A DNA stretch of 64,000 bases from contig WEDG01007407.1 in assembly GCA_017591395.1 (NCBI GenBank), positions 1 to 64,000 on the forward strand, given 5' to 3'. A program made the translations under genes and the position numbers. Shown piece by piece: positions 38-58,166 of this stretch (positions within the stretch are counted from its first letter, which is position 1; every line of letters starts with the position of its first letter). A model generated the notes under the pieces. That model made no database searches, had not been told where the DNA came from, and saw nothing but the letters and a program-made list of their open reading frames with translations. The stretch comes from Schistocephalus solidus (Eukaryota; Platyhelminthes; Cestoda; Diphyllobothriidea; Diphyllobothriidae).

Positions 38-280
38 AATGGAACCGACAAAGACAAGGGAGACCGGAATGGCCATTTCTGGCTTATTAGCCGTCATCAG
101 CCAGTCATACCCAATCCCAAGTGTAGCACACCTGGGATTCAAACCCGCAACCTTTGGTATTTGAGTCGAACGCTCTACCATTGAGCCACGGGCTCGTTGT
201 TTTGTCGGTTGTGATCGGGAATATGATGATAGTGTGGGGCTCACCGATCTGTATAAGGAACATTTTATGTTCCGTTGTGC
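36..280 (-). mobile_element. tRNA-like/hammerhead repeat, minus-strand copy
   Basis: Read on the minus strand this copy has, in order, a conserved GGAACA/TGTTCC hairpin (about 258-275), a tRNA-like block with A box (complement of 173-192) and B box (complement about 135-147, one base off consensus), and a hammerhead fold (63-107). It is the same unit as 505-832. It ends at an inversion junction near 280, where a plus-strand copy begins inside hammerhead stem II. Confidence 0.75.
63..107 (-). ncRNA. Hammerhead-like ribozyme fold (copy 1)
   Basis: On the minus strand GACUGG precedes CUGAUGA. Then come C, GGCU-AAUA-AGCC (stem II), A, GAAA, the self-complementary UGGCCA, UU, and CCGGUC, which pairs with GACUGG as stem I. 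All core positions of a type I hammerhead are present except that the first stem II pair is C/A instead of G-C. The expected cleavage site is after AUU. Activity is inferred. Confidence 0.65.
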
Positions 281-444
281 TAATAAGCCAGAAATGGCCA
301 TTTCGGTCTCCCTTGTCTTTGTCGGTTCCACCTTATCAAAATATACCTCAAGTTGCAATGCGACTGCCCATGAGGGCTCTAAAGTGAGCTCCAAGGCACA
401 AAGGAACATCCGTGTTCCTTAACCAGATCGGTCAATCCCACACT
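281..444 (+). mobile_element. tRNA-like/hammerhead repeat, 5'-truncated plus copy
   Basis: This copy starts inside hammerhead stem II (TAATAAGCC then AGAAA). It runs through the 3' part of the unit: the CTTTGTCGGTTCC block, the GCAATGC hairpin region, GAGCTC, the GGAACA...TGTTCC hairpin and the CACACTATCAT block. It then enters a (TA)n tract. With 36-280 it forms a head-to-head pair. Confidence 0.7.
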
Positions 445-447
445 ATC

Positions 448-492
<45 letters not shown>
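445..492. repeat. (TA)n microsatellite
   Basis: About 48 bp of TA repeats, degenerating to TATG/TATATG at its right edge, separating two copies of the tRNA-like/hammerhead repeat. Confidence 0.95.
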
Positions 493-500
<8 letters not shown>

Positions 501-671
501 ATGTATATGTATTTGTCGGTTCCCTTCCATCATATGCTACACGTCGCTATGCGACCGCCTGCAAGGGCTCTAGTCTGAGCTCCAGGGCACAACGGAACAT
601 GCATGTTCCTTAAGCAGATCGGTGAGCCCCACACTATCATCATATTCCCGATCACAACCGACAAAAACAAC

Positions 672-748
672 GAGCCCGTGGCTCAAATGGTAGAGAGCGT
701 TCGACTCCAAATACCAAAGGTCGCGGGTTCGAATCCCAGGTGTGCCAC
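672..748 (+). promoter_or_regulatory. tRNA-like internal pol III promoter (A and B boxes)
   Basis: The A box region TGGCTCAAATGGTAG (679-693) and a consensus B box GGTTCGAATCC (726-736) are spaced as in a tRNA. The D-stem GCTC/GAG(A)GC is recognisable. The anticodon arm is not convincing and the sequence recurs in many copies, so this is a tRNA-derived promoter and not a functional tRNA gene. Confidence 0.7.
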
Positions 749-763
749 ACTGGGATTGGGTAT

Positions 764-808
764 GACTGGCTGATGACGGCTAATAAGCCAGAAATGGCCA
801 TTCCGGTC
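764..808 (+). ncRNA. Hammerhead-like ribozyme fold (copy 2)
   Basis: GACTGG (764-769) pairs with CCGGTC (803-808) as stem I. CTGATGA occupies 770-776 and stem II is GGCT/AGCC with an AATA loop. GAAA is at 791-794 and is followed by TGGCCA. The self-complementary ATGGCCAT leaves essentially no loop for stem III in a monomer, so a dimeric ribozyme is expected, as described for other hammerheads with minimal stem III. Confidence 0.7.
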
Positions 809-832
809 TCCCTTGTATTTTGTCGGTTCCTT

Positions 833-834
<2 letters not shown>

Positions 835-911
<77 letters not shown>
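835..911. repeat. (TA)n microsatellite
   Basis: About 77 bp of uninterrupted TA repeats between a plus-strand and a minus-strand copy of the tRNA-like/hammerhead repeat. Confidence 0.95.
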
Positions 912-913
<2 letters not shown>

Positions 914-1341
914 GATATGTGGGATTGACCGATCTGGTTAAGGAACACGGATGTTCCTTTGTGCCTTGAAGCTCACTTTAGAGCCCTCATGGGCAGTTGC
1001 ATTGCGACTTGAGGTATATTTTGATAAGGTGGAACCGACAAAGACAAGATTGACCGAAATGGCCATTTCTGGCTTATTAGCCGTCATCAGCCAGTTATAC
1101 CCAATCCCAGGTGTTGATCATCCCGAGATTCGAACCCGCAACCTTTGGTCATTGACTGCAACACTCTACCATTGAGCCACGGGCCCGTTGATTTGTCGGT
1201 TGCGATCGGGAATATAAATTATGATAGTGTTGGATTCACCGATCGGGTTAAGGAACACGGATGTTCGTTGGGCCTTGGAGCTCACTTTAAAGCCCCCACA
1301 GCCAGTCGCATTGTGACTTAAGGTATATTTTGAAAAGGTTT
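912..1341 (-). mobile_element. tRNA-like/hammerhead repeat, minus-strand tandem (about 1.4 units)
   Basis: The ACCGATC...TTAAGGAACACGGATGTTC block occurs twice (about 924 and 1237), giving a period near 313 bp. Between the two lie one hammerhead fold (1052-1096) and one tRNA-like block (complement of about 1130-1190). The copy ends at an inversion junction near 1341, where plus-strand units start. Confidence 0.7.
1052..1096 (-). ncRNA. Hammerhead-like ribozyme fold (copy 3)
   Basis: The core CUGAUGA and GAAA and the stem II GGCU/AGCC are intact on the minus strand. Stem I is AACUGG against UCGGUC. It stays mostly pairable through G-U wobbles, but the outermost pair is lost. Confidence 0.55.
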
Positions 1342-1740
1342 CCTTATCCTTGATAATGGTTTCCTTGCGGGTTCGAATCTCGGGTGATCCACACCTGGGA
1401 TTGGGTATGAATGGCTGATGACGGCTAATAAGGCAGAAATGGCAATTCCGGTCTCCCTTGTTTTTGTCGGTTCCACCTTATCAAAATATACCTTAAGTCG
1501 CAATGCGATTACCCGTGAGGGTTCTAAAGTGAGCTCCAAGGCAAAACGGAACATCCGTGTTCCTTAACCAGATCGGTGAATCTCACACTATCATAATTTA
1601 TATTCCCGATCGCAACCGACAAAACAACGGGCCCGTGGCTCAATGGTAGAGTTTTACACTCAATGACCAAAGGTTGAAGGTTCGAGTCTCGGGTGATCCA
1701 CACCTGGGATTGGGTATGACTGGCTGATGACGGCTAATAA
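1342..1740 (+). mobile_element. tRNA-like/hammerhead repeat, plus-strand tandem interrupted by satellite
   Basis: Two plus-strand units lie in direct tandem: the CTGATG core occurs at 1415 and again at 1724, a period of 309 bp. The first unit lacks its A box half. The second is complete through the tRNA-like block (about 1628-1705) but is cut in hammerhead stem II at 1740, where the 355-bp satellite begins at a shared CCAGAAA. Confidence 0.7.
1409..1453 (+). ncRNA. Hammerhead-like ribozyme fold (copy 4, decayed)
   Basis: CTGATGA and GAAA are present, but stem I is GAATGG against CCGGTC (one lost pair), stem II is GGCT/AGGC (one lost pair) and the stem III palindrome is broken (TGGCAA). Probably inactive. 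Confidence 0.45.
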
Positions 1741-3950
1741 ACCAGAAACCGCATAGAGAACGCTGGGGGACCCACTGAAGAGCCGAACCCCTCGTTGCTG
1801 TGTCACGTAGCAACAGAAACATCGGCGAAACACGTGTCTGGGCTTTTAGCTAGTACCTATGTCGGAAGTACGGTATAACGTCTTTGCCATATAAGATTCA
1901 TACTACTTGTAGTACTACTTGTTTGTAGAATGGGCATTACGTGGTTATTCCACAGTGGTTGATTGTCTTCGACCCAAATGTTCATTGAAATTTCGGGTCT
2001 GACCCTAAAAAGTCATGTCCGAATCACCTGACTCCATGTCCTGCACTTAATAATTTCAGAAATTATTTACCCCGATTATTCTCTGGAGTCCATATACCAG
2101 AAACCGCATAGAGAACGCTGGGGACCCACTGAGGAGCCGAACCCCTCGTTGCTGTGTCACGCAGCAACAGAAACATCGGCGAAACACGTGTCTGGGCTTT
2201 TAGCTAGTACCTATGTCGGAAGTACGGTATAACGTCTTTGCCATATAAGATTCATACTACTTGTAGTACTACTTGTTTGTAGAATGGGCATTACGTGGTT
2301 ATTCCACAGTGGTTGATTGTCTTCGACCCAAAATGTTCATTGAAATTTCGGGTCTGACCCTAAAAAGTCATGTCCGAATCACCTGACTCCATGTCCTGCA
2401 CTTAATAATTTCAGAAATTATTTACCCGGATTATTCTCTGGAGTCTATATACCAGAAACCGCATAGAGAACGCTGGGGACCCACTGAGGAGCCGAACCCC
2501 TCGTTGCTGTGTCACGCAGCAACAGAAACATCGGCGAAACACGTGTCTGGGCTTTTAGCTAGTACCTATGTCGGAAGTACGGTATAACGTCTTTGCCATA
2601 TAAGATTCATACTACTTGTAGTACTACTTGTTTGTAGAATGGGCATTACGTGGTTATTCCACAGTGGTTGATTGTCTTCGACCCAAATGTTCATTGAAAT
2701 TTCGGGTTGACCCTTAAAAAGTCATGTCCGAATCACCTGACTCCATGTCCTGCACTTAATAATTTCAGAAATTATTTCCCCGATTATTCTCTGGAGTCCA
2801 TATACCAGAAACCGCATAGAGAACGTTGGGGGACCCACTGAGGAGCCGAACCCCTCGTTGCTGTGTCACGCAGCAGCAGAAACATCGGCGAAACACGTGT
2901 CTGGGCTTTTAGCTAGTACCTATGTCGGAAGTACGGTATAACGTCTTTGCCATATAAGATTCATACTACTTGTAGTACTACTTGTTTGTAGAATGGGCAT
3001 TACGGTTATTCCACAGTGGTTGATTGTCTTCGACCCAAATGTTCATTGAAATTTCGGGTCTGACCCTAAAAAGTCATGTCCGAATCACCTGACTCCATGT
3101 CCTGCACTTAATAATTTCAGAAATTATTTACCCCGATTATTCTCTGGAGTCCATATACCAGAAACCGCATGAGAGAACGCTGGGGGACCCACTGAGGAGC
3201 CGAACCCCTCGTTGCTGTGTCACGGCAGCAACAGGAACATCGGCGAAACACGTGTCTGGGCTTTTAGCTAGTACCTATGTCGGAAGTACGGTATAACGTC
3301 TTTGCCATATAAGATTCATACTACTTGTAGTACTACTTGTTTGTAGAATGGGCATTACGTGGTTATTCCACAGTGGTTGATTGTCTTCGACCCAAATGTT
3401 CATTGAAATTTCGGGTCTGACCCTAAAAAAAGTCATGTCCGAATCACTGACTCCATGTCCTGCACTTAATAATTTCAGAAATTATTTACCCGATTATTCT
3501 CTGGAGTCCATATACCAGAAACCGCATAGAGAACGCTGGGGGACCCACTGAGGAGCCGAACCCCTCGTTGCTGTGTCACGTAGCAACAGAAACATCGGCG
3601 AAACACGTGTCTGGGCTTTTAGCAAGTACCTATGTCGGAAGTACGGTATAACGTCTTTGCCATATAAGATTCACACTACTTGTAGTACTACTTGTTTGTA
3701 TAATGGGCATTACGTGGTTATTCCACAGTGGTTGATTGTCTTCGACCCAAATGTTCATTGAAATTTCGGGTCTGACCCTAAAAAGTCATGTCCGAATCAC
3801 CTGACTCCATGTCCTGCACTTAATAATTTCAGAAATTATTAAACTGATTATTCTCTGGAGTCCATATACCAGAAACCGCATAGAGAACGCTGGGGGACCC
3901 ACTGAGGAGCCGAACCCTTCGTTGCTGTGTCACGTAGCAACAGAAACATC
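1741..3950 (+). repeat. ~355-bp satellite array, six full units and one partial
   Basis: Units start at the CCAGAAACCGCAT motif at 1741, 2096, 2451, 2804, 3157, 3514 and 3868, giving lengths of 353-357 bp. The last unit is truncated after about 83 bp. Units are nearly identical, differing by single-base indels and a few substitutions, which suggests a young or homogenised array. Each unit contains a hairpin GTTGCTG-7 nt-CAGCAAC; the units with TAGCAAC keep it through a G-T wobble. Each also contains the near-perfect palindrome AATAATTTCAGAAATTATT. ORFs inside are short and look incidental. Confidence 0.95.
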
Positions 3951-4013
3951 GCGTTCATCATCTCCTGGAGAAGACGAAGAAGAAGAGGGGGGCGAGTTCA
4001 TGGACCAAATTGT

Positions 4014-4064
4014 ATTTGTACTGACGTTTCGAAAGCCTTCTCGCTTCCATCATCAGAGTAAAGT
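4014..4064 (-). ncRNA. Hammerhead-like motif at PLE-1 3' end
   Basis: On the minus strand TACT precedes a perfect CTGATGA (complement of 4050-4056). Stem II is GGAAG/CTTTC, followed by GAAAC and GTC, then AGTA, which pairs with TACT as stem I. The very short stem III matches the minimal type I hammerheads described in PLEs. Confidence 0.65.
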
Positions 4065-4291: not shown

Positions 4292-5293
4292 TCAGTCGTT
4301 GCTGCAATCGTGAGTTGTTCTCCGTTTTACCCGTGCATTGGTGAGGCAGTGTTTGACTTGGTCATGTGACCTTCGGCCGCCGACCCGCTTTTCCGTGAGC
4401 GTGAGTTGTCGGTTCAGTGTGCTCGTTTGCCTTATTGGCCCTGGCCGAACTGATCTGAGCTTTGTACGAAGCACCTGGTAGGCGGGATGTAAGTCTATAG
4501 CTCGGTTGAGTGTGCCAGTCGAGGACCAACTCTCGAGCACCAGTCTGGCCATCTTATCATTGGCTCGGCCAATCACCCTCGTTTTCTCAAAGGCGAAATC
4601 GTGGTTCAGCTGTTGTGCGTGACCATAAACCAAAGACAACTTGTCTTTGCGGTTGATTGCAAGTTGGTGTTCATGCAACCTTGTGTCTAGGCGCTTGCCC
4701 GTTTCACCAACATACCTCGCATCAAAATCTTGGCATGGTATGCTGTAGACCACTACTGATTGTTCTGTTACTGGTAGCGGGTCTTTGGGCTTCATGACTT
4801 GCTGTCTGATAGAGCATTCTGGTTTATGAGCCACGCCAATCCCAAAAGGTTTTAGGATTCTTGCAGTCGCCTCTGAACAGTTCCTCATATAAGGGATTTC
4901 AAGCCAACACTTTGGCTTTTCTTCGTTCGACTGCTCAAACTGAGGCTTCCTGAGGCATTTGTCGATGAAGGACTTTGGATAACCGTTGGCTGTAAAAAGG
5001 GCATGTAAGTACTCTATCTCCTCCTTCTTCCCACTGTCGTCGCTGCTGTGTGTTTGGACACATCGGAAGAGGGTTCTGACACAACTGCGTTTGTGGCCAA
5101 CAGGGTGGTTGCTTCGGAAATGGAGGATGCGCTTAGTGTTGTTTGCCTTACGGTAGACCGTTGTCCTTATCTTCCCGTCTGCCAGCTTTGTAACATGGAC
5201 ATCAAGGAAGGGCAACTGATTGTTGACTTCTTCCTCCATGGTAAACTGGATGTCGGGAAAGATTGAATTCAACAATGCCCTGACAGCCTGCAA
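4292..5293 (-). pseudogene. PLE-1 RT C-terminus and GIY-YIG endonuclease
   Basis: A 333-residue open segment. It begins in the distal RT region (NNQLPFLDV near residue 26), passes through the HKRSCVRTLF block typical of PLE proteins (about 68-77) and reaches a GIY-YIG nuclease (VVYSIPCQ ... YVGETGKRLDTRLHEH, about residues 181-210). The downstream C-terminal tail is basic. It is an open fragment of a larger broken polyprotein, with the upstream RT catalytic core in other frames (5394-6028). The endonuclease would nick DNA for target-primed insertion. Confidence 0.85.
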
Positions 5294-5393
5294 GTGACTC
5301 CTTGATTATGACGAACGTGTCATCGACGTATCTGGTCCAGAACTTCGGGGGTTACGAGCAAAAGACCAGCTGCTCAAGCCTCTGCAAAACTGC

Positions 5394-8483: not shown

Positions 8484-8632
8484 CATAGCGACGTGTAGCA
8501 TATGATGAAATGGAACCGAAAAAGACAAGGGAGACCGGAATGGTCATTTCTGGCTTATTAGCCGTCATCAGCCAGTCATACCCAATCCCAAGTGTGGCAC
8601 ACCTGGGATTCGAACCCGCGACCTTTCGCACG
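8484..8632 (-). mobile_element. tRNA-like/hammerhead repeat fragment, minus strand
   Basis: It begins with the GTCGCATAGCGAC hairpin and continues through GGAACCG...GACAAGGGA, the hammerhead fold (8533-8577) and the B box (complement about 8608-8620). It ends before the A box, so it is truncated. Confidence 0.7.
8533..8577 (-). ncRNA. Hammerhead-like ribozyme fold (copy 5)
   Basis: CUGAUGA, stem II GGCU/AGCC, GAAA and stem I GACUGG/CCGGUC are intact on the minus strand. The stem III palindrome carries one substitution (UGACCA), the only deviation from copies 1 and 2. Confidence 0.6.
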
Positions 8633-11505: not shown

Positions 11506-12539
11506 TTTTTGTGAAATGTGGAAATGCCTGTTGTTTTCTCCGGAAAGCCTACATTTCTGCATAAAATATCTTTACCAGTATTCCTTCGGTTGAATTATCG
11601 ATTATCTATAACAACACCTCGCGTTATCCCCCATAATGCGTCTTTCTGCCCCAAACATCGTTTCACGAGGGCAAACAGTCGGCACTGAACGTTCGATTGC
11701 AGATTTCGAAACACTAATTAATAGCTTAGATAACCTCTCTATAAGTCCTTTTTAGACCAGAACTATCAAACGTAGAGCACTTCCTTCATAGTAAATCCGT
11801 TTTTCCGGCTTCGTCCAACTAGAATTACTATAATAGCAATATTAACTTCGTACCTTGTATGACACGAGGTAACTCAATTACCAAAATGAGATAGTGTCCT
11901 GTACCTCACTTTTATTGCCGTGGTTACCTTCTTGACTGGGCCAAAACCTCTGCGGATTGGCGCGGGCACAGTGACTGACGAGAATGAGATTGAGTTTACG
12001 CCAACCCCACTCCACACAGACCAGTTCTCAATGATATCCCATTGGATTTGCTATGAAGGTTTCAACCATTAACACGTTGGAGGGCATTTGCTTCTTCATA
12101 GTGAAGATATTAAGTGCTGGACCTCACTTGTCCATCGTCCCTCGTAATCTCTGTGATGTCGGAATTACATCGACTGGGGATGATGTGATTGGTTACATAC
12201 ACCGCTTGACCTTAACTGCAGCCCTGTATTTAGTTAGGCACAGGTCACACATTTTATTATCTTTTCGGGTGATTTAAATGTCCAGGTCTGTTTATAATGT
12301 GCCAACAACATGAACTGCGATCAATTTGACGGTTTATATTTGCCGGCTCAGTTTGATCGAAGTAGTCCAGGAAGGATTAAATAGTATGTCAAAGGAATTA
12401 TTCAAATCTGCCAAAATCCTCTACTAATTAATTGTGCCTGGTGGATTATAGATTGATTGCTTAGGAAATCCTGCTTGGGCAGTCAGCTTACTGTATCAGA
12501 ATTGGTGGATTCCATACGTTGCAGTAGGCTGGGTAGGTA
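11506..12539. other. Intergenic stretch, nothing recognised
   Basis: Only short incidental ORFs. The segment at about 12395-12430 shares the AATCTGCCAAAATCCTCT motif with sequence beside the tRNA-like element at 55210-55250, suggesting an old dispersed repeat. Confidence 0.5.
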
Positions 12540-12700
12540 ACTTGACCCAAGTGTGATTAAACTCACGGCTCCAGGTGGGGCCTCTTAGCTCAGTTGGTTA
12601 GAGTGTTGGCTGTACTAAAGTCTTCCCCTTGCTGGCGTCGGTTCGAATCACACCGAGACCGCCGAGTTTTTCACAAGTGGGTCAAAGGAAATATGTCTGA
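12540..12700 (+). repeat. tRNA-derived SINE-like element, copy 1
   Basis: It contains TTAGCTCAGTTGGTTAGAG (A box), an anticodon-arm-like region, an extended variable segment and GGTTCGAATCA (degenerate B box). Flanks on both sides match the copy at 55060-55240: CTTGACCCAA.TGTGATTAA before, TTTTCACA.G..GGTCAAA after. The T-stem here is broken, so it is not a functional tRNA. The long variable segment hints at a class II tRNA (serine) ancestor. Confidence 0.6.
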
Positions 12701-21217: not shown

Positions 21218-22180
21218 ATGAAGGACACTGAGACTAACGCAGACTCTCTTGACGTCCATAGCCTCTCTTTCAAATTGCCCCCATTTACGCCAAGCAACCC
21301 TCGCGTATGGTTTAGGCAGATCGAGGCAGTTTTCTCGACGCGCCGTATCACCAGTGAACGCACGCGTTATTCATACGTAGTGCAATCACTTCCTTTCGAT
21401 GTTGCTGCTGACGTCGAGGACCTCCTTGATCCTATCCCCTGCTGAGGAGCCATACACCCAGTTGAAGGATGCTGTAGTTAATCGTGTGGCCAAGTCGGCT
21501 AACCGAATGCTGCGTGAGCTTTTTCACGCAAGTCGAACTTGGCGATCAAACACCTTCCCAACTTATGCGACACATGCGTTCTTTTGCTTTGCTGGTCGTC
21601 ATATGGATGATGCAATTTTCCGACAGATCTGGCTTGATAAGCTTCCCCTGCCCATGCAGCAGGTATTGGCTATGCTCGACACGAGCACCTCATTAGATAA
21701 ACTAGCCACTCATGCAGACAGAATCATGGAATGCTATCCAAGCGGTACCGCATGTTCTAGTCTTCAACAGACATCGGTGTCCACTTCCAGATCTGATAAT
21801 ATTGACACTCCTGCTCATCAAGGCATTCCAAAGTCAGAACGTGACCCTCCCTATGTGACGTTATCATCGTGCTGTAGTGCCTATCCACGGGCCGCACCAT
21901 CATCTGACCTTTCGCAAGCCTCAAATATCGTGCGTAGCAGTGATTATGAAGATTTAAAGGATACCGTACGCCTTTTATGTACGCCTTTTGTGTTCTATCA
22001 TCAACAATCTTCAGTCAAATAGTCGTAAACCATATCAACGTCGACGGTCCAAATCACGGGAATGGCAGCCACAGACCGTGTGCTGGTATCATCGTACCTA
22101 TGGCGTGAAAGTACGCAAGTGTATTCCGCCGTGCAAATTCCCACAGAAGCCGCAACAGTTAAACGACAACGCCAGCCAGT
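21218..22180 (+). pseudogene. Ty3/gypsy gag
   Basis: The ATG at 21218 gives a gag matrix-like region (FKLPPFTPSNPRVWFRQIEA, the start of the family of gag proteins found in animal gypsy elements). A one-base insertion near 21430 moves it to a frame with LPLPMQQVLAM and a helical tail. A further shift yields a CWYHRTYG ... C..PC knuckle near 22080-22130. It would form the particle and bind RNA if intact. Confidence 0.8.
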
Positions 22181-22858
22181 AATGGCGACGACTGCTGCTG
22201 GCCAACCGCGACCCAGTCGCCTCTTCTACATCACCGATAATTCGAGTGGTCTCCGTTTTCTTGTAGATACCGGTGCTGAGATTAGTGTTATCCCGCCTCC
22301 TAGGCGTCACCACCTCAAGCCTTCGCAGTTCTCATTGCAGGCTGCTAACAACACCGTCATCCACACATTCGGACAACAGTCCCTAACTCTTAACATTGGT
22401 CTAAGGCGATGTTTCCAATGGGTCTTTATCCTAGCCGACGTCCAGTCACCGATTATTGGAGCCGATTTCCTCTCACATTTCAGCCTTTCAGTTGATTTGA
22501 AGCATCGTCGACTGATTGATACTACAACTAGACTTTTCGCCGTCAGTACGGTCACCTCTGAACCTTCGGTTGGCATACACTTGACTATTCAAAGTTCGCC
22601 CTTTGCTGACATTTTGAAGGACTATCCGTCCCTCACTAAGCCTTGTCAGTTTACCGAAAAAGTTCAGCACACAGTTCAGCATCAAATATTTACCACAGGG
22701 CAACCCGTTTATGCCCATCCACGCAGACTTCATCCAGAAAAGCTGCGGGTGGCTAGAAGTGAGTTCGAACACATGCTAAATTTGGGGATTATTCGCCCTT
22801 CTTCCAGTCCATGGGCCTCTCCTCTGCACATGGTCCCCAAGAAATCAGCCGATGATTG
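22062..22858 (+). pseudogene. Ty3/gypsy protease and RT N-terminus
   Basis: The open frame includes the aspartic protease motif FLVDTGAEISVIPP (about 22258-22299) and ADVQSPIIGADFLSHF, then the linker to RT (YAHPRRLHPEKLRVARSEF, IIRPSSSPWASPLHMVPKK). It stops at TGA 22856-22858, just before the GDYRALN motif that continues in another frame. Confidence 0.85.
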
Positions 22859-23859
22859 AGGCCATGTGGGGATTATCGTGCTTTGAACAGAGCAACTGTC
22901 CCCGATCGGTATCCCATTCCTCATATTCACGATTTTTTTCTCACATGTTGGCTGGAAAGACTATTTTTCTCCAAGATCGACCTTGTGAGAGCATATCATC
23001 AAATACCGGTCGCTGAGGAAGACATCCCCAAGACCGCCATCACAACGCCTTTTGGCTTGTTCGAATTTCTCCGCATGCCTTTCGGTTTTGCGTAACGCCG
23101 CCAAAATCCTTTCAGCGGTTTATTGATGAGGTCTTGCGCGGTCTTTCGTTTACCTTTGTCTATATTGATGACATACTCGTCGCAAGTTCTTCGCCAGCGG
23201 AACATGCATCACACTTGCGTCAAGTGTTTGATCGTTTCCAGCAACATGGTTTGCAATTAAACGTCAACAAATGTCTTTTTGGTGTTCCTTCTCTTGATTT
23301 CCTTGGTCATCACGTCGATCAGCATGGAATCACACCACTTTCAGAGAAGGTGCAAAACGTTTTATCGTTTCCGTCTCCGAAGACCCTCACACAACTGCGA
23401 CGTTTCATTGGACTTGTCAATTATTACCGACGTTTCATTCCCAACTGTGCGACAATACTGGCTCCATTGACTGATCTTTTGAAGTCGAAAGGCAAGCCGA
23501 TTGAACTTTCACCGGCAGCTCACTCAGCTTTTGAGGCAGCCAAGAAGGCACTCGCTGATGCGACTATGCTGCACCACCTCAACTCTGACGCTTCTACGCA
23601 GTTGATTTTGACCACTGACGCTTCCAACAGTGCTGTCGGCGCAGTCTTACATCAACAGGTGAATAACCAGTTGCAGCCATTGGCTTTCTTTTCACAGAAG
23701 CTACAACCGGCGCAGACTCGCTACAGTACTTTCTCTCGCGAGCTCCTGGCTATATACCTGGCTATTCGTCATTTTCGCCACCTATTAGAGGGAAGAGATT
23801 TTCGGGTTCATACCGACCACAAAACCTCTTACTTACGCCCTCAAGGCCAAACGAGATAG
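22856..23859 (+). pseudogene. Ty3/gypsy reverse transcriptase and RNase H
   Basis: 22856-23095 carries [20 protein letters not shown] and [15 protein letters not shown]. After a shift, 23134-23859 carries the catalytic FVYIDDILVA (YIDD), then LNVNKCLFG, FLGHHVDQHGI, and the RNase H start (TTDASNSAVGAVLHQ, FFSQKLQPAQTRYSTFSREL). The RNase H end is broken at DHK. Two frames are required. Confidence 0.9.
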
Positions 23860-23875
23860 GTACTCGCCCAGAGAA

Positions 23876-25258
23876 GTGCGTCACCTTGACTTTATTTCGC
23901 AGTTTACTGCTGATATCCGCTACGTCCGAGGCAGCGACAATGTCGTTGCTGATGCATTATCGAGACCGGACATCAACACCTTGTCCTCCAAATTCGACCT
24001 GGCGAAGCTTGCAGACCTCCAACTAGAAGACGAGTCCATTACTGATCTTCGTAAATCTAGTACTCTGCAGCTTCGAGATGCACCACTTCCAGCATCACCA
24101 GGTACGATTTTATGCAACTGGTCCACAGGCACCCCCAGACCTGTTGTTCCACTATTCTACCGTAAGGTAGTGTTTAACCATTTTCACTCTCTGTCGCATC
24201 CTGGCATCCGCGCCTGTCGCAAACTTATTGCTGCTCGCTTTGTCTGGCCAAAGATGAACTCCGACATCGCCCCTTTGGACTAGGCAATGTTTCGCGTGCC
24301 AGAAAAACAAAGTTCATCGCCATACCTTTTCCCCTCCAAGCACATTTGCTGTTCCGGACGTTCGATTCCATCACGTTCACTTAGACTTAGTTGGGCCGTT
24401 ACCACCTTCACGTGGGTACACACATATTTTCACAGCAGTCGACCGTTTCACACGATGGCCAATTGCAATTCCGATATCGGATACCTCGGCAGAAAATATT
24501 GCCATGGTCTTCCTGCATCACTGGATTGCCGATTTTGGTGTGCCAGCCACCATTACCACTGACCGCGGAAGCCAGTTTCAATGTAGTCTCTTCCGTGAGT
24601 TCACTAAACTTCTCGGGTGTGCGCACATCACGACAACGGCATATCACCCTGCTTCTAACGGCCTCGTGGAACGACTGCATCGTCAACTTAAGACAGCACT
24701 GATGTCTCACTCAGACACAACTGCATGGAGTGACAACTTACCCTCGTCCTTTTGGGTATTCGATCAGCTGTCAAAGAGGACATTCAGTGTACTACGGCAG
24801 AACTTGTATACGGTACACCTCTCCGCCTTCCCGGCGAATTTGTGCAGCCTCTCACCGTAGACACTAGCTTGTCGAATGCTTTCGTTCAACAATTGAAACA
24901 GCGCATGGCTCAATTGCGTCCAACTCCCACTCGCCTGACATCCAAACGCGTTTTTGTGCAAGACGACCTTAAATCTGCTCCATTCGTCTTCGTCCGGCAC
25001 GACGCAGTTCGCAAGCCTCTTTGTTCCCCTTATGATGGCCCATACAAGGTGCTTCAACGGATGGACAAGTATTACGTCATACAGAAAGCTGACAAGACTG
25101 ACACAGTCTCCATCGACAGACTCAAGCCAGCTTATCTTGAGTGCGTCCCGTCAGTTGCCGTTTCTCGACGTGCTGGTATACAGAAAGGGCGATGGAAAAC
25201 TCAAAACGACGGTTTACAGGAAGGCGACGAATACCTCTCGCATTCTGAGTTATTTTAG
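23876..25258 (+). pseudogene. Ty3/gypsy integrase
   Basis: 23876-24283 carries the RNase H tail (GSDNVVADALSRPD) and the integrase zinc-binding start (FNHFHSLSHPGIRACRKLI). The DDE core is spread over frames: HLDLVGPLPPSRGYTHIF near 24375-24430, TTDRGSQFQCSLF near 24560, and NGLVERLHRQLK near 24660. The C-terminal part (24752-25145) ends with SPYDGPYKVLQRMDKYYVI and SIDRLKPAYLE. The reading after about 25145 belongs to the PLE. Confidence 0.85.
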
Positions 25259-25955: not shown

Positions 25956-26111
25956 GTTAAATGAGCAGTGAGCTGTACATTCTTTTATTCCTTGACGATT
26001 GGCTCGCGTGAGAGTTCGAAACGTCGGATGAATAAAATTCTGGTCCCAGAGAACGCCTTCCCGTTTTTCTTCTATACAATTACCCGGGCCTCGCATATTC
26101 TCGAACATTCG

Positions 26112-29012: not shown

Positions 29013-29940
29013 GAAGCAAAGATGCGAGTCTCCGGACATAAATGAGAAAAAGAGACGATCTCAGGGACCATAGGTGTATTTTCCTGACGTTTCAAAAGCA
29101 GATAAGCTTCCATCGTCGGCGGTGACTATCGTTCTGCATCTCACAGCTTTTATAGTTGGTGAAAGTCATTTTCAACACAGCGTTGATTGTACGGGTTTAC
29201 CTAAACAGTGTAAACTCTAGGGAGGACGGGGTGGGGAGTCCTTAATTGGTTTTGTCGCTCCTCGCACGCATACACACAGGGAACATCTCTGTGGTCACCG
29301 GGGCTTAGGGGGAAGGTAGGAGGGTAATTGCTGTCAGTTGGCATGTCTCTCGTCGAGGGGTGGCGTTTGAAAGTTGGCGGCCCTCGCCCGCGTCCGCATT
29401 GACTTTACTTTGCACCCTGGGTTGCTAGTCCTGTTTGTGTCCTTCTGACTGCATTTCTCCTGGTCTATCGGAGAAGTGGTGTATGCGGCAGTATTGATGG
29501 CTACACCTTCGTCGGACATGGATTGTGTCATCTTTACGTGCGTGCCCGTCCTAGATTCTCCCATGATTGGATTTAAGTTTGGCCTAATTTCGTGCTTGCT
29601 GTTACTTTCGATGAGCTGCTCCTGGAGGGCTTGGTAGGCTACCGGAAGGGCGACACAACGGTTGATTTAGGTAGTCTCCATGTGCTAGGCATCGATTGTT
29701 GCCCTGGTTACTCGGTCATTCCCTCGACCCAGTATTTCGGCGTTCTGGAAGGCGAACGTCTGCCCAGAGTCTGCGCAGTGTTCCGCCACCAGGTACAATG
29801 GGTCCATTCTCCTCACTGCCCCCACTGGCTCGGTAACACGGGTCTGCAATCGCTTCCTTGTTTCTCTGTTTTTAGAAAGATTTAAGGAAACACTGGGCGT
29901 TCTTGTACTGCAACTTTCAGCCGCACACGCCACCATATCT
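29010..29940 (-). mobile_element. Penelope-like element PLE-6, 3' end only
   Basis: The minus-strand segment 29685-29936 encodes the post-catalytic part of a PLE endonuclease (RKRLQTRVTEPVGAVRRMDP, LVAEHCADSGQTFAFQNAEI, GRGNDRVTR). Further C-terminal sequence lies at 29334-29564. A hammerhead-like motif lies at 29075-29130 and a (TA)n follows. The 5' part of the element is missing. Confidence 0.75.
29075..29130 (-). ncRNA. Hammerhead-like motif at PLE-6 3' end (core mutated)
   Basis: On the minus strand CCGACGA stands at the CTGATGA position, followed by a six-pair stem II (GGAAGC/GCTTTT), GAAAC and GTC. Two substitutions in the core; stem I is weak. Confidence 0.45.
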
Positions 29941-32114: not shown

Positions 32115-34334
32115 CTGTGATCATGTGGGTAGAGGGAATGGACAGATGTAGTCATATAAATTAGGGAAATATAACTTAAAAGCGGCCTCTAGGAACGGGA
32201 AATCATGGGTGGTGTGGAAAGAAAAAACTCATTTAAAAATGACTGGAGTTCTTGCGACTGTATTCAAAAAGCTGATTGTGATGAATTATCGGCGAAAGTC
32301 ATGAGGATGTAAGTGTTTCCGACATGGGGTTCTTCAAACGGCCAGCCATGTGAGAAAGGTTTGGGGGCTCGAAGTCGACACGAGTTCGACTTATAACTCA
32401 TTCGCATCACGTTCGATGTAGTTACCAAATGGCGCGTGTTCCAGCCTTAGGGCTGGTATCCAGAGTTTTGGTAAGGACGCACTAATTATAGCAAATCAAT
32501 CAGTTACGGACATTCCCGTTTTCCTTGCCTCGTTAATGACACTCATGAGTACTGGATGCTAGGCCAATGCAGACGGAACGTCCATGCATGGCATATCGAT
32601 TTACCGTCGGAGCATTTCTCATCACACAAAATGATCTTGCTAGAAGTAATAACACTAGCTATCTAGCCAGTGTTTTCACTGTTTTTCGGAACTCGTATGT
32701 GTTTAATTATTTTATATAGGATGGAAAAGGGAAAAGAATCCTTTCATAGCGTTTTCATATGTAAATTAAATATGGCTGTAAAGGTTGGGATTGCAGGGTT
32801 TTAAGAAAGGTCACAACCATTATTTTTATATGACTACTATTTAACAACGAGTTCGTGTGCGTGTTCTGTAAAGAAATACCCACAATATTTTGCCTAAAAC
32901 TTCCTGAGCATACATAATTCCTCATAAACCCACTTGGGAAACAAGTGTATATTTGGAAATAAAACGTCGTTCAAGCAAATAGCTTTGAATTTCATGAAAC
33001 AGAATCCATCTTTCCTTAAAAAAGACACTTTTCAGGGAAACGTACTTTGATGTAGTTAGCATACAATTGCCTTTTTGTTTATCTCATGTATGTTACCTGT
33101 ATTTGTTTTGCACTCATCGAAAAGCAAAGGCAAAAATGCGATTAACAAAGGATCGACCCATTTGTTAGCGAGAAAAGTGACTACCGAGCGTATAAAACCG
33201 AACACTAAGTCGCCATTGTAATAAGCCAGTGGTCAGATGCTGTAACGTGCTCAATGACGCTGTTGGAGAAAGTATTCCAAGTTGGAGATATCCCGAAAAA
33301 TTTAAGTCAACATAAGTGATTCTGGCCACAATTGCAGGTTTTGTGATTAAGACCCCCTTTCCCTCGCACCCCACTGACAGTAAACGAGAATAGGAATGTC
33401 CCACGTAATAAAGACGGCTCTGCGCAAAATTTCAGGAAGGGTAAACATTCTCGTGTTCCAACCCTAAGATTAACCCTAAACTAAACTTTAACCATAGCCA
33501 TAATATCCGTTGATAAACGCTCACCGGTTCCTCCTCCTGTTTTCCCTGGGGGCTCACTCTTGGGGCCCGCCCGCAGCCACACAGCGGCTATTATTATAGT
33601 CAGAGGAACTTTGCCAACAAAGACGAGGGAGACTGGAATGGCCATTTCTGGCTCATTAGCCGTCATCAGCCAGTCCTACCCAGCCCCAGGTGGTGCACCA
33701 CCAGTGCTGAATGCGTCGACTGGCGTCGAACATGACGATCCTACTCTTGAAAAAATATGTTGGCAGCAGGATGTCTGACAGTAGTTCCCTGCTCCAGGCC
33801 TCGGCCAGCCATGCGGCGGAAGTAATTTGCATGGAACTTCCATAATTTTATGTCACCATCGCCGCATAAGTAAACTCCTTAACATTAACCACAGATAAGA
33901 TGAGCGGCTGACTTTGTGAGAGACTACATTTCAATGGAGGGCTTATGTTCCCCATAACTTAATGCATCTGAGTGCCATTCGTAAAGTATTGTATGAAACG
34001 TGACTGCGAATTAACGCATGGTAGGTGGATTAAGGGAAATCAAATGCAACTCTGTAGCTTTTATCCTACTAACAGCAAATTCACAGTATTCAATCAACCT
34101 GCTTTGACCAGTATGTGCCTTGAGGTAGCTGAACAAAACTGTCTTCAGCCGCAACTTCGCCGGACGTTGTTAGCAGTACTATCCAAAAGACGCAGAAGGA
34201 TACATGCACCTACGCAATGCAAATTCCTGAGCTCTCCGAGCATTAGGTGCCCGTACAAAATATTTCGGAAGGCCGCACTACGGAGTCAAATACTCCGAAT
34301 TATATGAAGGTTCCTGAGAGGATTGTCTACTTAC
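32115..34334 (-). other. K2P intron 3
   Basis: About 2.2 kb. It contains a MITE-like telomeric-repeat relic near 33400-33510 (CCAACCCTAAGATTAACCCT...) and a tRNA-like/hammerhead fragment at 33600-33690. Nothing else recognised. Confidence 0.7.
33631..33675 (-). ncRNA. Hammerhead-like ribozyme fold (copy 6), in K2P intron
   Basis: Stem I is GACUGG/CCAGUC, fully Watson-Crick (U-A where copies 1, 2 and 5 have U-G). CUGAUGA is intact, stem II is GGCU-AAUG-AGCC with a changed loop only, and GAAA, UGGCCA and UU are intact. It lies in the sense orientation of the K2P pre-mRNA, so an active ribozyme would cleave the intron. Flanks differ from the standard unit, so only the ribozyme segment is shared. 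Confidence 0.65.
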
Positions 34335-35957: not shown

Positions 35958-37628
35958 CTGTAAGAAAGGAAAGGTGCAAAAACGCGATCAGTTAGAAAAA
36001 GAAATAAAATCACATGGATGTTCTTTTTCGGTAAGTCCTTCGTTGGCAACTAAGCCATTATCAAGGAAAAGCACGTATGCCGTATTCAACCTGTTTTAAA
36101 ATAACGTCCGTTTTTTAGTTCAGCCTACTCCTCTACAGAGATTTTTGGACCCACGTATAATCCTTTACTGAGCTGTGATAATCACTCCGTAAGCCATGGG
36201 CATAATTTTTGGCAATATTACAAAAAATCAATTGTGGGAAGTGCAGCTTTGAAGTGGGGCTTTGAAAACCGATACTGGAGGTGAGTCACTTCAACGAGAT
36301 TTGACTGAAAGACAAATTGTGGCCAGTCATTGGCTATCAACTTGAAATTTGAAAATCTTATCTAAGGTTTGGAAAATAATTTGAAAAGATGCCGTTGGAA
36401 GATAAATTGAACAAAGCTTGTACAAAAAATACAATCACAAAAATTTGCTCCCTGTAATGCAGGCTATATGAAGCTATTGTCACTTCCTGGGTAGTGCATG
36501 ATGATAGCAACAAATAAAAGTCTGTTCACTTAAAAAATGTGCTGAATAATAAGTTATTTAATGGAAACATTGTGCAATGGCAAACACCGTTAATCATAAG
36601 AAGGTGCGTAGTTAGCAACTCAACTCTGATCTAGCTAACGCCCGTGGTACACGGCCTACCTCTCAATGAATCGGGAACTTGTAGGCAAATGCTCTCACCG
36701 ATGTTTGCCACAGTTAATTTCTTCAGTGAGAGTATCGGTATCATCGCAGAGCTTTAAATACCTTTCTATATGATAACACTATAACCAGTAAGATTCAAGG
36801 GAACCGCATAACAAATATTTAAGGTTTTCCAACCTCCTGCATTTTCTAGCGAGCAATTTAATTCGAATCGGCTCGCCACTCATAATACCGGACACTATTG
36901 CTAATTAATTAAACGAACCAGAACATTCCCATATTTTATGGTCTAACTACTGAAGGGAATACCTTGATGGATATAAGGTACAAGGAATAATCAGTAACGC
37001 TGCATTTAGTTATAGCACTACTTGGGAAATCTTACCAGAGATAACAGGGTCAATGTGATGGATATCCCAGTGCCTCGGTCTCTGTTGGTAAGGCGTACCA
37101 CCTATTTATTGCTAATAGAACAAAGGCCACAAGTATGGACTTTAAATTCACACCTGCAATACAGAGTGGGAAGGGCAATTTTACGTTTTACAATCCAGAC
37201 AGATCGGTGCCCGTCATCCCTGTGGGAATAATATTAACTGCTAGCTGTCCTCAAAATAAGCATGCCTGTTCTTTTCAAAAGGGTCAGTCATATGTTTTTC
37301 GAGGGCAGTCTCATTGTCAAACTAGCTCTTTATCTAGTATCTACCTTGTGTTTCAGCGCAGCAAAACGTTACATGACTATGGAACTAATCTTCGAATATA
37401 GTAATTTGGTTTGCAACGAAATTAGGGCAGCTACTGGCTTTTAACCAGAAATTGGTGAATGCATAAATCTCAAACTTCCTGACAAAACCTATTTTCTGGT
37501 TCTGTCAACAACGTTCTTCCTTGTCATAATTGCCCAGCAAGCCACATGTATTGCTGTTGTGGGCCGTCTCTATCACAGTTTGGACTTAGATGGTAAAATA
37601 ATTAAAGATATGCCGGAATCCAGCTCAC
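35958..37628 (-). other. K2P intron 1
   Basis: About 1.67 kb, AT-rich, phase 1, interrupting the first selectivity filter between the two codon halves of its first glycine. No other feature recognised. Confidence 0.75.
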
Positions 37629-38136
37629 CGATGGTGGTAAGTATTGTTGCACAGAAGTACAATGAATTGACCCAGTTCCATTTAGATCCAAACGGCGTGG
37701 TATGAATGACAGAGCAGTTCTTGCTGGGCGGAAAATCGAGCGTAAACAGGCTGTCCGCAAAATCCGTCATGGCGGTTTGCAAACGAACAGCGACCTCTGC
37801 CTCATCCAGGCCCGAGTTCACGATTCCTGTAGCCCGGATCATAGACGTGTTCAGTCGTTCGAGGTAGAGCTTGTAAGTGTCGTAGCAGGCATTCGCTTCG
37901 TTGCTCTTCTCCAGGTATTGGAACATCCAGGCGCCTGCGCCTAAGTAGAGGCAGAGGAGAATCAGTGTGCCCAGCACAGAGGACAAAATTCGGATGAACG
38001 TCTGGCAGCATTTAGTGATGTTACGAGAGTAGTTGTCTTCTATCGACGTATCAATCACCTTGCCGTCCGCATCGAGGACTCCGCTCGTGAGGTTTGCCTC
38101 AAAAGCAAAGTCGTAGTTATTAGTTGCAGCAAACAT
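37629..38136 (-). CDS. K2P potassium channel, exon 1 (M1, cap, first pore)
   Basis: Chosen start is the first in-frame ATG (38134-38136, MFAATNNYDF). The upstream frame is open a little further but has no ATG, so an earlier exon cannot be excluded. The exon encodes M1 (about residues 47-73, ending GAWMFQYLE), an extracellular cap of ~80 residues with possible N-glycosylation sites (NTS ~96, NCS ~140), and pore helix 1 (WNWVNSLYFCATILTTIG). It ends in phase 1 at donor GTGAGC. The assembled four-exon protein is ~517 residues: a plasma-membrane background (leak) K+ channel forming dimers. Subtype not assigned. Confidence 0.85.
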
Positions 38137-38659
38137 CCCACAGCCGTCAACTGCCCAACGGTATGTCAAATGTTGCCTTATCTGCTAGAACCGTGCTTCT
38201 AAATCGGAAACTTTTAAGATGTGGCCATGGAAACTACGGGGCATTTCTTTCCTTCCGTTGTCATGGTAGTCACTCAATTGTCTCAACTTGCAACAGCTAC
38301 AAGAGTTTGTTGTTACACGTCTCGAGAGTCGAGGTAGAGAGGGTGGGGAGGAGAGGAGTGACGGGCGAAAGGAAGTTGGGTTGACGTGACAACCACTGCT
38401 GCTGCTGATGCTATCGCGCGACTAGCCAGTGCAGTAGTAACCAGGGCTAAAAAGTATAACGCGATCCTTGTTCATAGAAAGTTCGTTAAGGTACTAACAT
38501 GTCAGACGCAGACAGCTGTTTCCCGGTCATTTCCGACAGTCAGCACTTAATTGGCCTTTCTTATTCTTTCCGCGGTGAGGTGTGTAAATTTGTCAATGGA
38601 GAAGGCGCGTGTGCTTGGAATCTTGGTCGATCCCATTGTGTCCGTTAACCGGTTGTTCC
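38137..38659. other. K2P 5' flank, nothing recognised
   Basis: It would hold the K2P promoter or 5' UTR if exon 1 is the first exon. No motif stands out. Confidence 0.4.
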
Positions 38660-42259: not shown

Positions 42260-42556
42260 GCTTAATTTCGTTTATGTATGTCTACGTCTTCATCCTCATA
42301 TACTACTTTCAGAACTTCTTGTTTTTAGAATGTAAAGTGCGTGGTTTTTCCAGAGTAGTTAATCGTCTTCGACTCAAATGTTCATTGAAATGCCTGTCTC
42401 ACCCCAAACACTCATTTCTAGATCACTTAACTCAATTTCTGCACTTAATTATTTTTGAAATTATTATCTTCATTATTATCTGGAGTTTATAGGCCAGAAA
42501 TCGATTAGAGAACGCTCGTGGACCCACTGAGGAGCCAAAACCCTCGTTGCTGCGTC
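42260..42556 (+). repeat. Diverged near-full monomer of the 355-bp satellite
   Basis: It matches the satellite in order: CTACTTTCAGAACTTCTTGT; GTCTTCGACTCAAATGTTCATTGAAAT; CACTTAATTATTTTTGAAAT; CTGGAGTTTATAGGCCAGAA; GAACGCTCGTGGACCCACTGAGGAGCC; and GTTGCTGCGTCACGCAAC. The GTTGC/GCAAC hairpin is retained with a changed loop. It abuts the truncated LINE. Confidence 0.7.
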
Positions 42557-44540
42557 ACGCAACATGACAGAGAACATAAGACTAAAGAGAATGGGAGCCA
42601 GTACCTAACCCTGCTTCAATCCGTTGGTCACTGCGAATGCTCCGGAAACCTTCCAGTTGTTAGTGACATACGCCATCATCCCGTCATTGAGCTTAGGACA
42701 GCCGAATTTCTGCATGATTTTTCACAATCCATCACAATTCCCTATTTCGAAGTCTTTCGTCAGATCCTCGAAGATAGTGTAGAGGTGCGTGTGCATTACC
42801 TGGAATTTCTTTTGTAGTAGATCGTTTCGGTGGTGCCTTTGTCTCGTCGGCAGTCACATTGACTTCCCGCGAGATCTACGTGGTTGTCAAGATGATTAGG
42901 ACGAATGCGAGCGACGATCTGCCCGGCGAGGTTAAGCAGTAAGATGCCTTTGTGGTTATCACAGATTTGCCGCTTCCCTTTCAGCTTGTATAGATGAATG
43001 ATGGCCACGTCCTTGAAAATCTTAGGAACCTGTCCTTGGCCCCACATCTCCTGGAATACTGCTGTAATTACCTCCATCAGCCGCGGGGAACAACGCTTAT
43101 AGACTTCGGCTGGAATGGCATTGGCTTGCGCGCTGGAAGGTTATTGCAAGGCCCGGATGGTTTCTGGTAGTGAAGGCGGGATATCCAGGTCATTGTTTAT
43201 GCCCACTTTGGGAAACCAGTCAATGGCAGCATCGGAGATGGTTGATGAGGGGTTGAGGACAATTCTGAAACACTTACCCTGCCAAACTGACTTTTTGTTT
43301 TCTCTATAAGAAGCGCTGTGTCATCAGAGCTCAGCAGTGGTGCGGTTCCCTTTGTGCAGGGGCCATAGACGTCCCTGATGACCTGAAAGAATTTTCTCAT
43401 TTCATTGCGGTCCGCGTAAACGTAGACTTTCACAGCTTTTGCGAGCCATCCAGGTGTTCTGCAGCTCCCGAAGCTGTTGCTGTACTAGGCATCGGCATCT
43501 GAAGCAACCTGCTCTGTTGACGTCGATCCGGTGATCCATGTAGACTTCGAGTAGTCGGTTCTTCTCAGCAAGTCGTTTGCGGATATGGGCACCATTGTCC
43601 TCAAACCAGTCATGGTGGTGATGGTGAGCATGTCCGAGGACGTCGAGAGCGTTGTACTGGATGAATTTCCACGATTCACGACATCGTGTCTCCACGGTGG
43701 CGTTAACATATGTAATTTGCAGGTCTTCAAGTCGCTGGGCAAATTGGTTGCTGAAATCAAAACTTAGAGTAGGCAAATTGACACAAGAGTATTCAACTTA
43801 CGCGGTGAACGCTTACCTAACGGTTTTCTGTGGGGTTGAAGTCAGAACTCCATTTCGGAGATGAAGTGGTGGTGATCCGTCCAGTCACCAGTACGTCCAG
43901 GCGATGCCGCTTCCAGATGAGAAATAGTCTGACAGCTTCCAGTGCCGTGATCGGGGGTGTATCCACGTGGCCCTCTCCCGCATCGAAAGGCGGAAGAACG
44001 TTTTGCTCAGCAAGAGGTGATATTCGGCGAGGTTTGCAAAGAAGGAGGCTGTTTTAGTTACATCCACCAAGAACATGGGAACACAGCCATATCTCCCAAC
44101 AACGTGCTCTTCCCTGACGCGTGTGCTGAATTCGCCAAGGAAAATCAGTTTGAATGCCCTTGGTACAGCCACTAGAATGGCGTGCAGGTCGTTGTATAAT
44201 GTCTTCTTCGCTTGCCGGAGCTCGTCATTGGAGGGGCGGGGGATAGGCGCTCATAGCACGGTCATCAGGCGAAGCCTATACCCTACGGTAGACAGGGAAG
44301 TCGTCGCACAGGGTTCTTTTTAGATGAAAGGTGACACTGACGTCGCATTGTTCGGCCTTTGAACGGCTGTTGTACAGGAAAGTGTATCCGGCACCCACCT
44401 CCACCAGCTGACCATTTGAAAGAATTGGGCCGCTCTGATTGTAGCGATGTCCACTTTGAATCACACCAGTCCTTGGGCGACTAACGCCGTTATCCGTTCC
44501 GGTTGGTCGTTCCTCGTATTGTCTTTAATTAGAATGAACA
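42557..44540 (-). mobile_element. RTE-type LINE (endonuclease/reverse transcriptase), decayed and truncated
   Basis: Minus-strand pieces in order: start of the AP-type endonuclease (44276-44464, EVGAGYTFLYNSRSKAE); endonuclease body (43885-44172, FKLIFLGEFSTRV, MRERATWIHPRSRHW); connector (43402-43776, LDVLGHAHHHHHDWFEDNGA, VQQQLRELQNTWMARK); VYGPCTKGTAPLLS (43197-43433); RT (42796-43077, FKDVAIIHLYKLKGKRQICDN). The downstream part (42560-42750) gives KIMQKFGCP and SGAFAVTNGLKQG with an in-frame stop, then VLAPILFSLMFSVML. It is lost before the FADD catalytic box, where the satellite relic begins. Many frameshifts; dead. Confidence 0.85.
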
Positions 44541-54900: not shown

Positions 54901-55059
54901 ATTATGTTGATTTGTTTTTCACATCACCTTTACAATAAACTGTCCGACCTTACCATTGAGTTACTCTAACCTTCGTTATCTCGCCGACACAAGGAGAAAC
55001 TCCCTGTTGATGTCCGCAGCCCAACAAACCGCTCATCATGGCATCATGGCTGGGTGGTT

Positions 55060-55240
55060 AACTTGACCCAAATGTGATTAACTCACGGTTCCCGGTGGGG
55101 CCTCGTAGCTCAGTTGGTTAGAGCGTCGGCTGTACTAAAGCCTTCACCTTGCTGGCGTGGGCTCAAATCCCACCGAGGGTGCCGGGTTTTCACACGTCGG
55201 TCAAATGAATTATTAAAATCTGCCAAAATCCTCTTCTCAC
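55060..55240 (+). repeat. tRNA-derived SINE-like element, copy 2 (intact tRNA-like fold)
   Basis: CGTAGCTCAGTTGGTTAGAG (A box), GGCT/AGCC anticodon stem with loop GTACTAA (apparent ACT), an extended variable segment, a perfect T-stem GTGGG/CCCAC and acceptor pairing GGCCTCG/CGAGGGT (6 of 7). The long variable segment suggests tRNA-Ser ancestry. Flanks are shared with 12540-12700, so a SINE is more likely than a functional tRNA gene. The B box reads GGCTCAAATCC. Confidence 0.55.
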
Positions 55241-57989: not shown

Positions 57990-58164
57990 CCGGCAGCGTC
58001 CATGGGTGAATCTAGTTTTTCATTTGCTACGACCTGCCCAACAAGGTCGCGAGTTCAAGGCTCGGGCGCCGCAGCGCCTATGTTTGGGTATGGCTGGCTG
58101 ATGACGGCTAATAAGCCAGAAATGGCCATTCCAGTCTCCCTTGTCTTTGTCGGTTATGTTATTC

Positions 58165-58166
<2 letters not shown>
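57990..58166 (+). mobile_element. tRNA-like/hammerhead repeat, variant 5' part
   Basis: A B-box-like GCGAGTTCAAGGCTC (58049-58063) and a GC-rich hairpin (GGGCGCCGCAGCGCC) precede the hammerhead fold (58092-58136) and the CTTGTCTTTGTCGGTT block. The part before the B box differs from the 505-834 unit, so this may be a subfamily. Confidence 0.6.
58092..58136 (+). ncRNA. Hammerhead-like ribozyme fold (copy 7), in TLK intron 1
   Basis: Stem I is GGCTGG/CCAGTC. Relative to copy 2 both strands have changed at different positions and all six pairs still form (one G-U). CTGATGA, stem II GGCT/AGCC, GAAA and TGGCCATT are intact. Sense orientation to TLK. Confidence 0.65.

Follow-up and report, generated by a model that had tools for sequence, protein, structure and literature searches.

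The SM-alpha repeats of schistosomes carry an RNA polymerase III promoter. Like the Sj-alpha repeats, they are described as elements resembling short interspersed nuclear elements, or SINEs (Ferbeyre 1998 and Laha 2000, via PMC2770079 and PMC8490949); in S. mansoni, 2,342 of the 2,368 tRNA-Gln-TTG-like genes were classed as SINEs similar to Sm-alpha (PMC2770079), and W36.2_W001, a sequence of 335 bp, is strongly similar to SM-alpha (PMC8490949). Animal retrozymes give RNAs of about 170-400 nt (PMC7229834), minimal type I hammerheads that require dimers are found in Penelope elements and amphibians (PMC7761336), and some SINE families have a conserved central domain behind their tRNA head (PMC3272025). 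How does a repeat of the tapeworm Schistocephalus solidus compare with these systems? It lies in 64,000 nucleotides of contig WEDG01007407.1 (assembly GCA_017591395.1), hereafter called the window, whose strands are marked (+) and (-). A full unit at 505-834(+), delimited by its sequence and by a block map, has a B block, a tRNA-like block and a hammerhead-like block in this order, with (AT)n tracts at its flanks. On balance, we take it to be a SINE-like element of this diphyllobothriid, non-autonomous and derived from a tRNA, probably with a minimal hammerhead domain that is either dependent on dimers or weakened.

The repeat and its conserved block

The string CTGATGACGGCTAATAAGCCAGAAATGGCCATT occurs seven times in the window at up to three mismatches, at 68-100(-), 770-802(+), 1058-1090(-), 1415-1447(+), 8539-8571(-), 33637-33669(-) and 58098-58130(+), while 100 shuffled windows yield no copy at all. 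The original prediction had counted at least seven copies of the surrounding hammerhead-like motif, and all seven were recovered, six exactly where it had placed them and the first one base off (62-106, not 63-107). It had also given a unit length of about 308 bp, with which the spacing agrees: TTGTCGGTT is found at 513 and again at 820, hammerhead blocks begin at 1390 and 1699, and the period is thus about 307-309 bp.

When three pieces of the repeat were compared with the window by BLAST, the resulting block map resolved two alternating blocks, A of about 173 bp (tRNA-like plus hammerhead-like) and B of about 145 bp as queried, the latter holding a GGAACAT..GTTCC palindrome. Unit A at 656-828(+), a tRNA-like head plus a hammerhead-like block, is closed by the inverted repeat AACCGACAAAA / TTTTGTCGGTT (656-666 and 818-828, 100% match). 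The B block makes up the other half of the period at 1472-1616(+), and further copies lie at 327-458(+), 543-658(+), 903-1033(-), 1199-1339(-) and 58204-58325(-), with a partial one at 208-280(-). The blocks are arranged as B-A (543-828), as A-B-A (1390-1748, the second A broken off) and in inverted order (1339-903 and 280-43), and several block ends are marked by (AT)n tracts. One unusual succession, A(+), (AT)n and B(-), is found both at 746-1033 and at the distant 58084-58325, as if B had flipped between GTCGGTT/AACCGAC ends. Decayed hammerhead-like blocks in inverted order were also noticed at 62190-62248(+), which is clear (E 1.5e-7), and at 62082-62131(-), which is weak (E 0.013). Pattern searches of viral and prokaryotic contig collections found no relatives of the repeat, and absence from such collections means little.

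The seven motif copies differ in what is left of the unit. Those at 62-106(-), with complete helices, and at 1052-1096(-), with 11 of 12 pairs, were both found by motif search, descriptor, pair count and block map, and both retain the tRNA-like head, as does 764-808(+). The copy at 1409-1453(+) has three changes in the motif, which damage helices I and II (10 of 12 pairs), and has its head from the B box on only, whereas that at 8533-8577(-) (motif search, descriptor, block map) has a head truncated just 5' of the B box, with 30 nt kept. Two diverged copies, at 33631-33675(-) and 58092-58136(+), were found by motif search and descriptor and have diverged heads and 12 of 12 pairs. There are in addition a partial copy at 279-327(+), of which the block map gives only the 3' half, and a copy at 1699-1748(+) broken off in the GAAA region, where the repeat runs at 1737-1748 into a neighbouring 355-bp array through a common CCAGAAA.

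The head itself has the features of a tRNA-type internal promoter for RNA polymerase III, from A box to B box at 679-735(+), where the consensus is matched and the Rfam tRNA model gives 16.7 bits (672-744). A and B boxes spaced as in a tRNA, sought with a regular expression, were matched at 679-735(+), at 1636-1688(+) and within 1111-1179(-), that is, ahead of copies 764 and 1052 and of the broken-off copy 1699-1748. The expression had no match ahead of copy 62-106; there the highest Rfam tRNA score was obtained, 25.3 bits at 124-194(-), the others in 1-2000 being 17.7 bits (1123-1179(-)) and the 16.7 bits mentioned, all below the gathering score of 29. Taken together, these motifs support a putative polymerase III head. 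A complete one precedes three of the seven copies (62, 764 and 1052) as well as the broken-off copy 1699, and the block map has no tRNA-head rows for copies 1409, 33631 and 58092, of which 1409 retains the B-box end. The combination of an A/B-box block with a downstream motif, first described for one unit, thus holds for copies 62, 764 and 1052 and not for 1409, 8533, 33631 and 58092, where the head is missing or decayed. A second pair of tRNA-headed repeats, 85% identical, was seen at 12530-12694 and 55051-55213; within the latter, ARAGORN reports a tRNA-Ser at 55099-55183, to which Rfam gives 36 bits, yet this copy resembles a SINE head with an insert.

Conservation is concentrated around the motif. 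From -7 to +48, 49-54 of 56-58 positions agree between the two diverged copies and the five main ones. The figures are only 21-28 of 40-45 for the 40 nt on the upstream side, in gapped alignments that would give about half for unrelated sequence as well, and 11-16 of 19-21 for the 18 nt on the downstream side.

Hammerhead geometry and its rivals

The motif at 764-808(+), with a descriptor score of 26 and 12 of 12 helix pairs, can be read as a type I hammerhead: helix I GACUGG/CCGGUC, CUGAUGA, a C·A pair, helix II GGCU/AGCC, GAA, AUGGCCAU and U17. Across the family, helix I is GACUGG/CCRGUC, with an outer GGG/CCC beyond a small internal loop, and helix II is GGCU-AAUA-AGCC. The palindrome AUGGCCAU spans 15.1 to 16.1, with U17 next to it; as helix III it can form at most 2 bp and a 4-nt loop in a monomer and 8 bp between two copies (92.9% of cells paired), and palindromic helices III that permit dimers are common in hammerheads (PMC3088659). 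The core (CUGANGA, GAA, A15.1-U16.1 and H17) is unchanged in all seven copies. Helices I and II are present, with 95.2% and 96.4% of cells paired, respectively; since nothing covaries, their pairing is consistent with the fold rather than proven. A hammerhead descriptor found 13 sites in the window, six in this repeat, six in the 355-bp array and one beside a Penelope-like open reading frame (ORF). Six of the seven motif copies pass it with scores of 24-26, only copy 1409 being missed, and its chance rate in 67,400 simulated 64-kb strands (order-1 Markov) is 0.0010 per strand at a score of at least 26 and 0.0025 at 24 or more, twice that for both strands, rates that are optimistic because the rule was set post hoc, unpaired bases are allowed and the copies are one family. 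The diverged copies retain all 12 hammerhead pairs, or 15 of 15 with the outer GGG/CCC, and have 18 and 17 of the 21 pairs left of a rival hairpin that is locally more stable. The other type I hammerheads in the same window, in the array and at 4017-4062(-), also count in favour of this reading. The hammerhead geometry is supported.

Several results weigh against it. The pair 10.1-11.1, which closes helix II, is C·A in all seven copies, although it is the most conserved pair besides A15.1-U16.1, and U-U is the mismatch best tolerated there (PMC3088659). The motif was said originally to satisfy the type I consensus; with this mismatch throughout, and 10 of 12 pairs in copy 1409, it does not do so in full. 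Variation is too little for covariation, no two paired columns having changed on both sides, and RNAalifold of the copies gives the rival hairpin. Of the nine distinct changes in the 45 nt, six keep the structure (P = 0.16); all nine spare the 11 core positions (chance 0.08), which speaks for the hammerhead, but both findings are suggestive, not significant. It is to be noted that the descriptor was written after the motif had been seen, and tolerates its mismatch and one unpaired base on each side of helix II, while the seven copies, as one family, amount to about one independent observation. Furthermore, Rfam gave no hammerhead match to the copies of this repeat, either at the gathering score over the whole window or at E ≤ 10 in 1-2000, 745-825 and 58070-58160, copies 8533 and 33631 being covered at the gathering score only. 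A covariance-model search had been named as a check on the original idea, and no copy searched gave a match. We do not count this silence as a refutation, since the Penelope-type motif at 4017-4062(-) escapes Rfam too: the search cannot see minimal hammerheads. Local folding with 20-nt flanks is also unfavourable (hammerhead -6.3 versus hairpin -25.2 kcal/mol), the 83-nt stretches at 764, 33631 and 58092 fold no better than shuffles (z -1.33, -0.77 and +0.82), and forcing the hammerhead costs 13.3 (1052), 7.6 (58092), 8.3 (33631) and 5.7 (8533) kcal/mol. With a mismatch in one core pair, no covariation and no Rfam match, a function as hammerhead is plausible, not proven.

The unit as a whole is predicted to fold strongly. 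For unit A at 656-828 the minimum free energy is -75.7 kcal/mol (z -6.69, none of 300 shuffles as low), and the three copies tested, with z -6.69, -5.07 and -3.65, each lie below all of their 300 shuffles; without the terminal stem z is -4.09, and the 60-nt cut 753-812 gives -2.61. Helix I with the outer GGG/CCC is part of the minimum-energy fold in two of six stretches (656-828 and 46-209), where forcing the hammerhead costs 5.5 kcal/mol.

What else could keep the block conserved? An explanation that we hold to be possible, though less probable than descent from or action as a minimal hammerhead, is that the block is the conserved central domain of a tRNA SINE, kept for its fold, for protein binding or for recognition by a helper reverse transcriptase, and that its likeness to a hammerhead is coincidental or without function. 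SINEs of that design exist (PMC3272025), the C·A mismatch is fixed, covariation is absent, the most stable 83-nt fold is the hairpin, and in most copies the conserved stretch continues beyond the motif into CTTGTCTTTGTCGG. The full geometry is nevertheless rare by chance (the rates given above, for a descriptor set post hoc), the palindrome is placed exactly at 15.1-16.1, and the diverged copies lose three and four hairpin pairs and not a single hammerhead pair. At the other end, the domain might itself be competent in catalysis, as a hammerhead that depends on dimers and has a non-canonical pair at 10.1-11.1; the SINE RNA would then be cut in cis or by pairing of two copies, and the cut would have a part in the spread of the family. 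This we put forward tentatively and think rather unlikely.

Quite improbable, in our judgement, is a complete SM-alpha or retrozyme cycle, in which an efficient ribozyme in tandem units frees RNAs of about 308 nt that are then circularised. The period of about 307-309 bp falls in the size range of animal retrozyme RNAs (PMC7229834), the 307-nt stretch 513-819 is stable as a circle (z -4.44, 60 shuffles), and A-B-A stands in direct order at 1390-1748. However, in this sole A-B-A run the first motif (1409) is damaged and the second is broken off at 1748, the core is mismatched, pieces bounded by (AT)n or inverted are frequent, and Rfam is silent. The repeat is confined to B-A, A-B-A and inverted pieces, none of which holds more than one complete motif. 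Self-cleavage of a tandem transcript into RNAs of about 308 nt suited to form circles, as first proposed, is unsupported, since direct tandems of two complete motifs are absent from the window. Finally, the inverted ends AACCGACAAAA/TTTTGTCGGTT could mark unit A as a miniature inverted-repeat transposable element, and we prefer to see in them the closing stem of an RNA because unit A folds strongly and the same ends also border the B block.

A 355-bp array and other elements in the window

The array into which the repeat runs lies at 1737-3951(+), with 6.2 copies of a 355-bp unit by Tandem Repeats Finder, and six units have a type I hammerhead. This hammerhead has CUGARGA, a G-C pair at 10.1-11.1 closing helix II, GAAA and a GUC site; the palindrome ACACGUGU makes up its helix III, a long loop caps helix II, and its descriptor score is 27. 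Rfam RF00163 (Hammerhead_1) finds it in the six units at 22.7-23.5 bits (E 0.014-0.025, gathering score 34), six matches that count as about one independent observation because the units are nearly identical, and the 87-nt stretch 1764-1850 folds no better than shuffles (z 0.34). Retrozymes are defined by units of 150-450 bp that stand in tandem and all have a type I hammerhead (PMC7229834), and the array at 1737-3951 has this organisation. Judged by its sequence, it is a strong candidate, and a better one than the tRNA-headed repeat; the retrozyme label first given to the latter, which lacks the tandem arrangement, fits the adjoining array much better. A decayed piece of the 355-bp repeat, with two matches (77% and 83% identity) and without the 3' half of the ribozyme, was observed at 42300-42577.

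A minimal Penelope-type hammerhead (descriptor score 24) lies at 4017-4062(-), just 3' of ORF 4295-5305(-). From features of the family, we take this ORF to be the endonuclease end of a Penelope-like element. Among the best 120 of its 562 matches, the best relatives are in Spirometra, Sparganum and Schistocephalus, and some of those listed are annotated RVT_1 or GIY-YIG. Pfam gave no match in the ORF itself, and two other ORFs of the window score just below the RVT_1 and GIY-YIG Pfam cut-offs. Of seven pattern matches to the Penelope-like protein in the viral contig collection none was confirmed; the collection being viral, absence from it means little. Looser hammerhead-like remnants with GAAACGTC were noted near Penelope-like ORFs at 25982-26035(+) and 29076-29129(-) and, by eye, at about 6296(-). 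Elsewhere in the window there are a retrotransposon ORF at 23017-23856 with RNase H-like and RVT_1 Pfam matches, with neighbouring ORFs from 21381 to 25258, and an exon for a potassium channel at 37573-38184(-), which over 85% of its length shares 87% identity with a protein of Dibothriocephalus latus (eight matches). This exon and the relatives of ORF 4295-5305(-) point to a diphyllobothriid tapeworm, or something closely related, as the host.

A possible life cycle and the described systems

Returning to the SINE-like element with a minimal hammerhead domain, how might it live? RNA polymerase III would act on the A and B boxes to transcribe it, and the transcript is predicted to fold into a compact branched RNA that is closed by the AACCGAC/GUCGGUU stem and one arm of which is the hammerhead-like domain. 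Most likely, this domain either descends from a minimal hammerhead or acts as one, its palindromic helix III working only in paired copies, as in the dimer-dependent hammerheads of amphibians and Penelope elements (PMC7761336). With its fixed C·A at 10.1-11.1, such a ribozyme should be either slow or a relic; a cut after AUU would part the B block from the 5' portion that bears the tRNA head. The reverse transcriptase of the co-resident Penelope-like elements may copy the RNA back to DNA. We infer both catalysis and mobilisation in this scheme.

An active domain would mean that hammerheads are borne by SINEs of tapeworms as well as of flukes, and one of them would have a broken 10.1-11.1 pair; the hammerhead of a tRNA SINE, an array of retrozyme type and a Penelope-type hammerhead would stand within about 4 kb of each other, and this co-location would make it testable which reverse transcriptase mobilises hammerhead SINEs. 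If it is inactive, the repeat would be a clean case of a hammerhead fold retained as a SINE domain. A literature search on hammerhead ribozymes and tapeworms returned no title on a tapeworm ribozyme, the word 'ribozyme' is absent from the available text of PMC12249497 and PMC12274263 (Spirometra and Caryophyllaeus), and 'hammerhead' is absent among the matches listed in a wider search with tapeworm names.

With the minimal hammerheads of Penelope elements (Cervera 2014 and Lunse 2017, via PMC7761336 and PMC8490949), the element shares a tiny palindromic helix III, for which dimers are expected. The palindrome is AUGGCCAU here and ACGU there; in contrast to them, the tRNA-headed repeat has an outer GGG/CCC on helix I and lies outside any Penelope-like element seen in the window. 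Like metazoan retrozymes (PMC7229834), it is a short non-coding repeat with a type I hammerhead-like motif; its unit folds strongly on itself, and Penelope-like elements are co-resident. It is without direct tandem copies holding two complete ribozymes, and it is the 355-bp array that fits. With SM-alpha it shares a flatworm host, a SINE-like and tRNA-related body, a type I hammerhead or hammerhead-like domain with extremely short helix III, and a similar length. The comparison with SM-alpha made at the outset was indeed the right one. The anatomy of interspersed flatworm copies with a tRNA- or polymerase III-type head and a type I hammerhead-like domain supports an SM-alpha-like architecture. 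Likened to SM-alpha by description, the tapeworm repeat differs in its core C·A mismatch and its host, and a ribozyme sequence shared with SM-alpha is not detectable because the repeat has no Rfam Hammerhead_1 match. Set apart by its tapeworm host, its fixed core mismatch and the absence of detectably shared ribozyme sequence, it is nonetheless of a known kind, the SM-alpha-type SINE (PMC2770079, PMC8490949).
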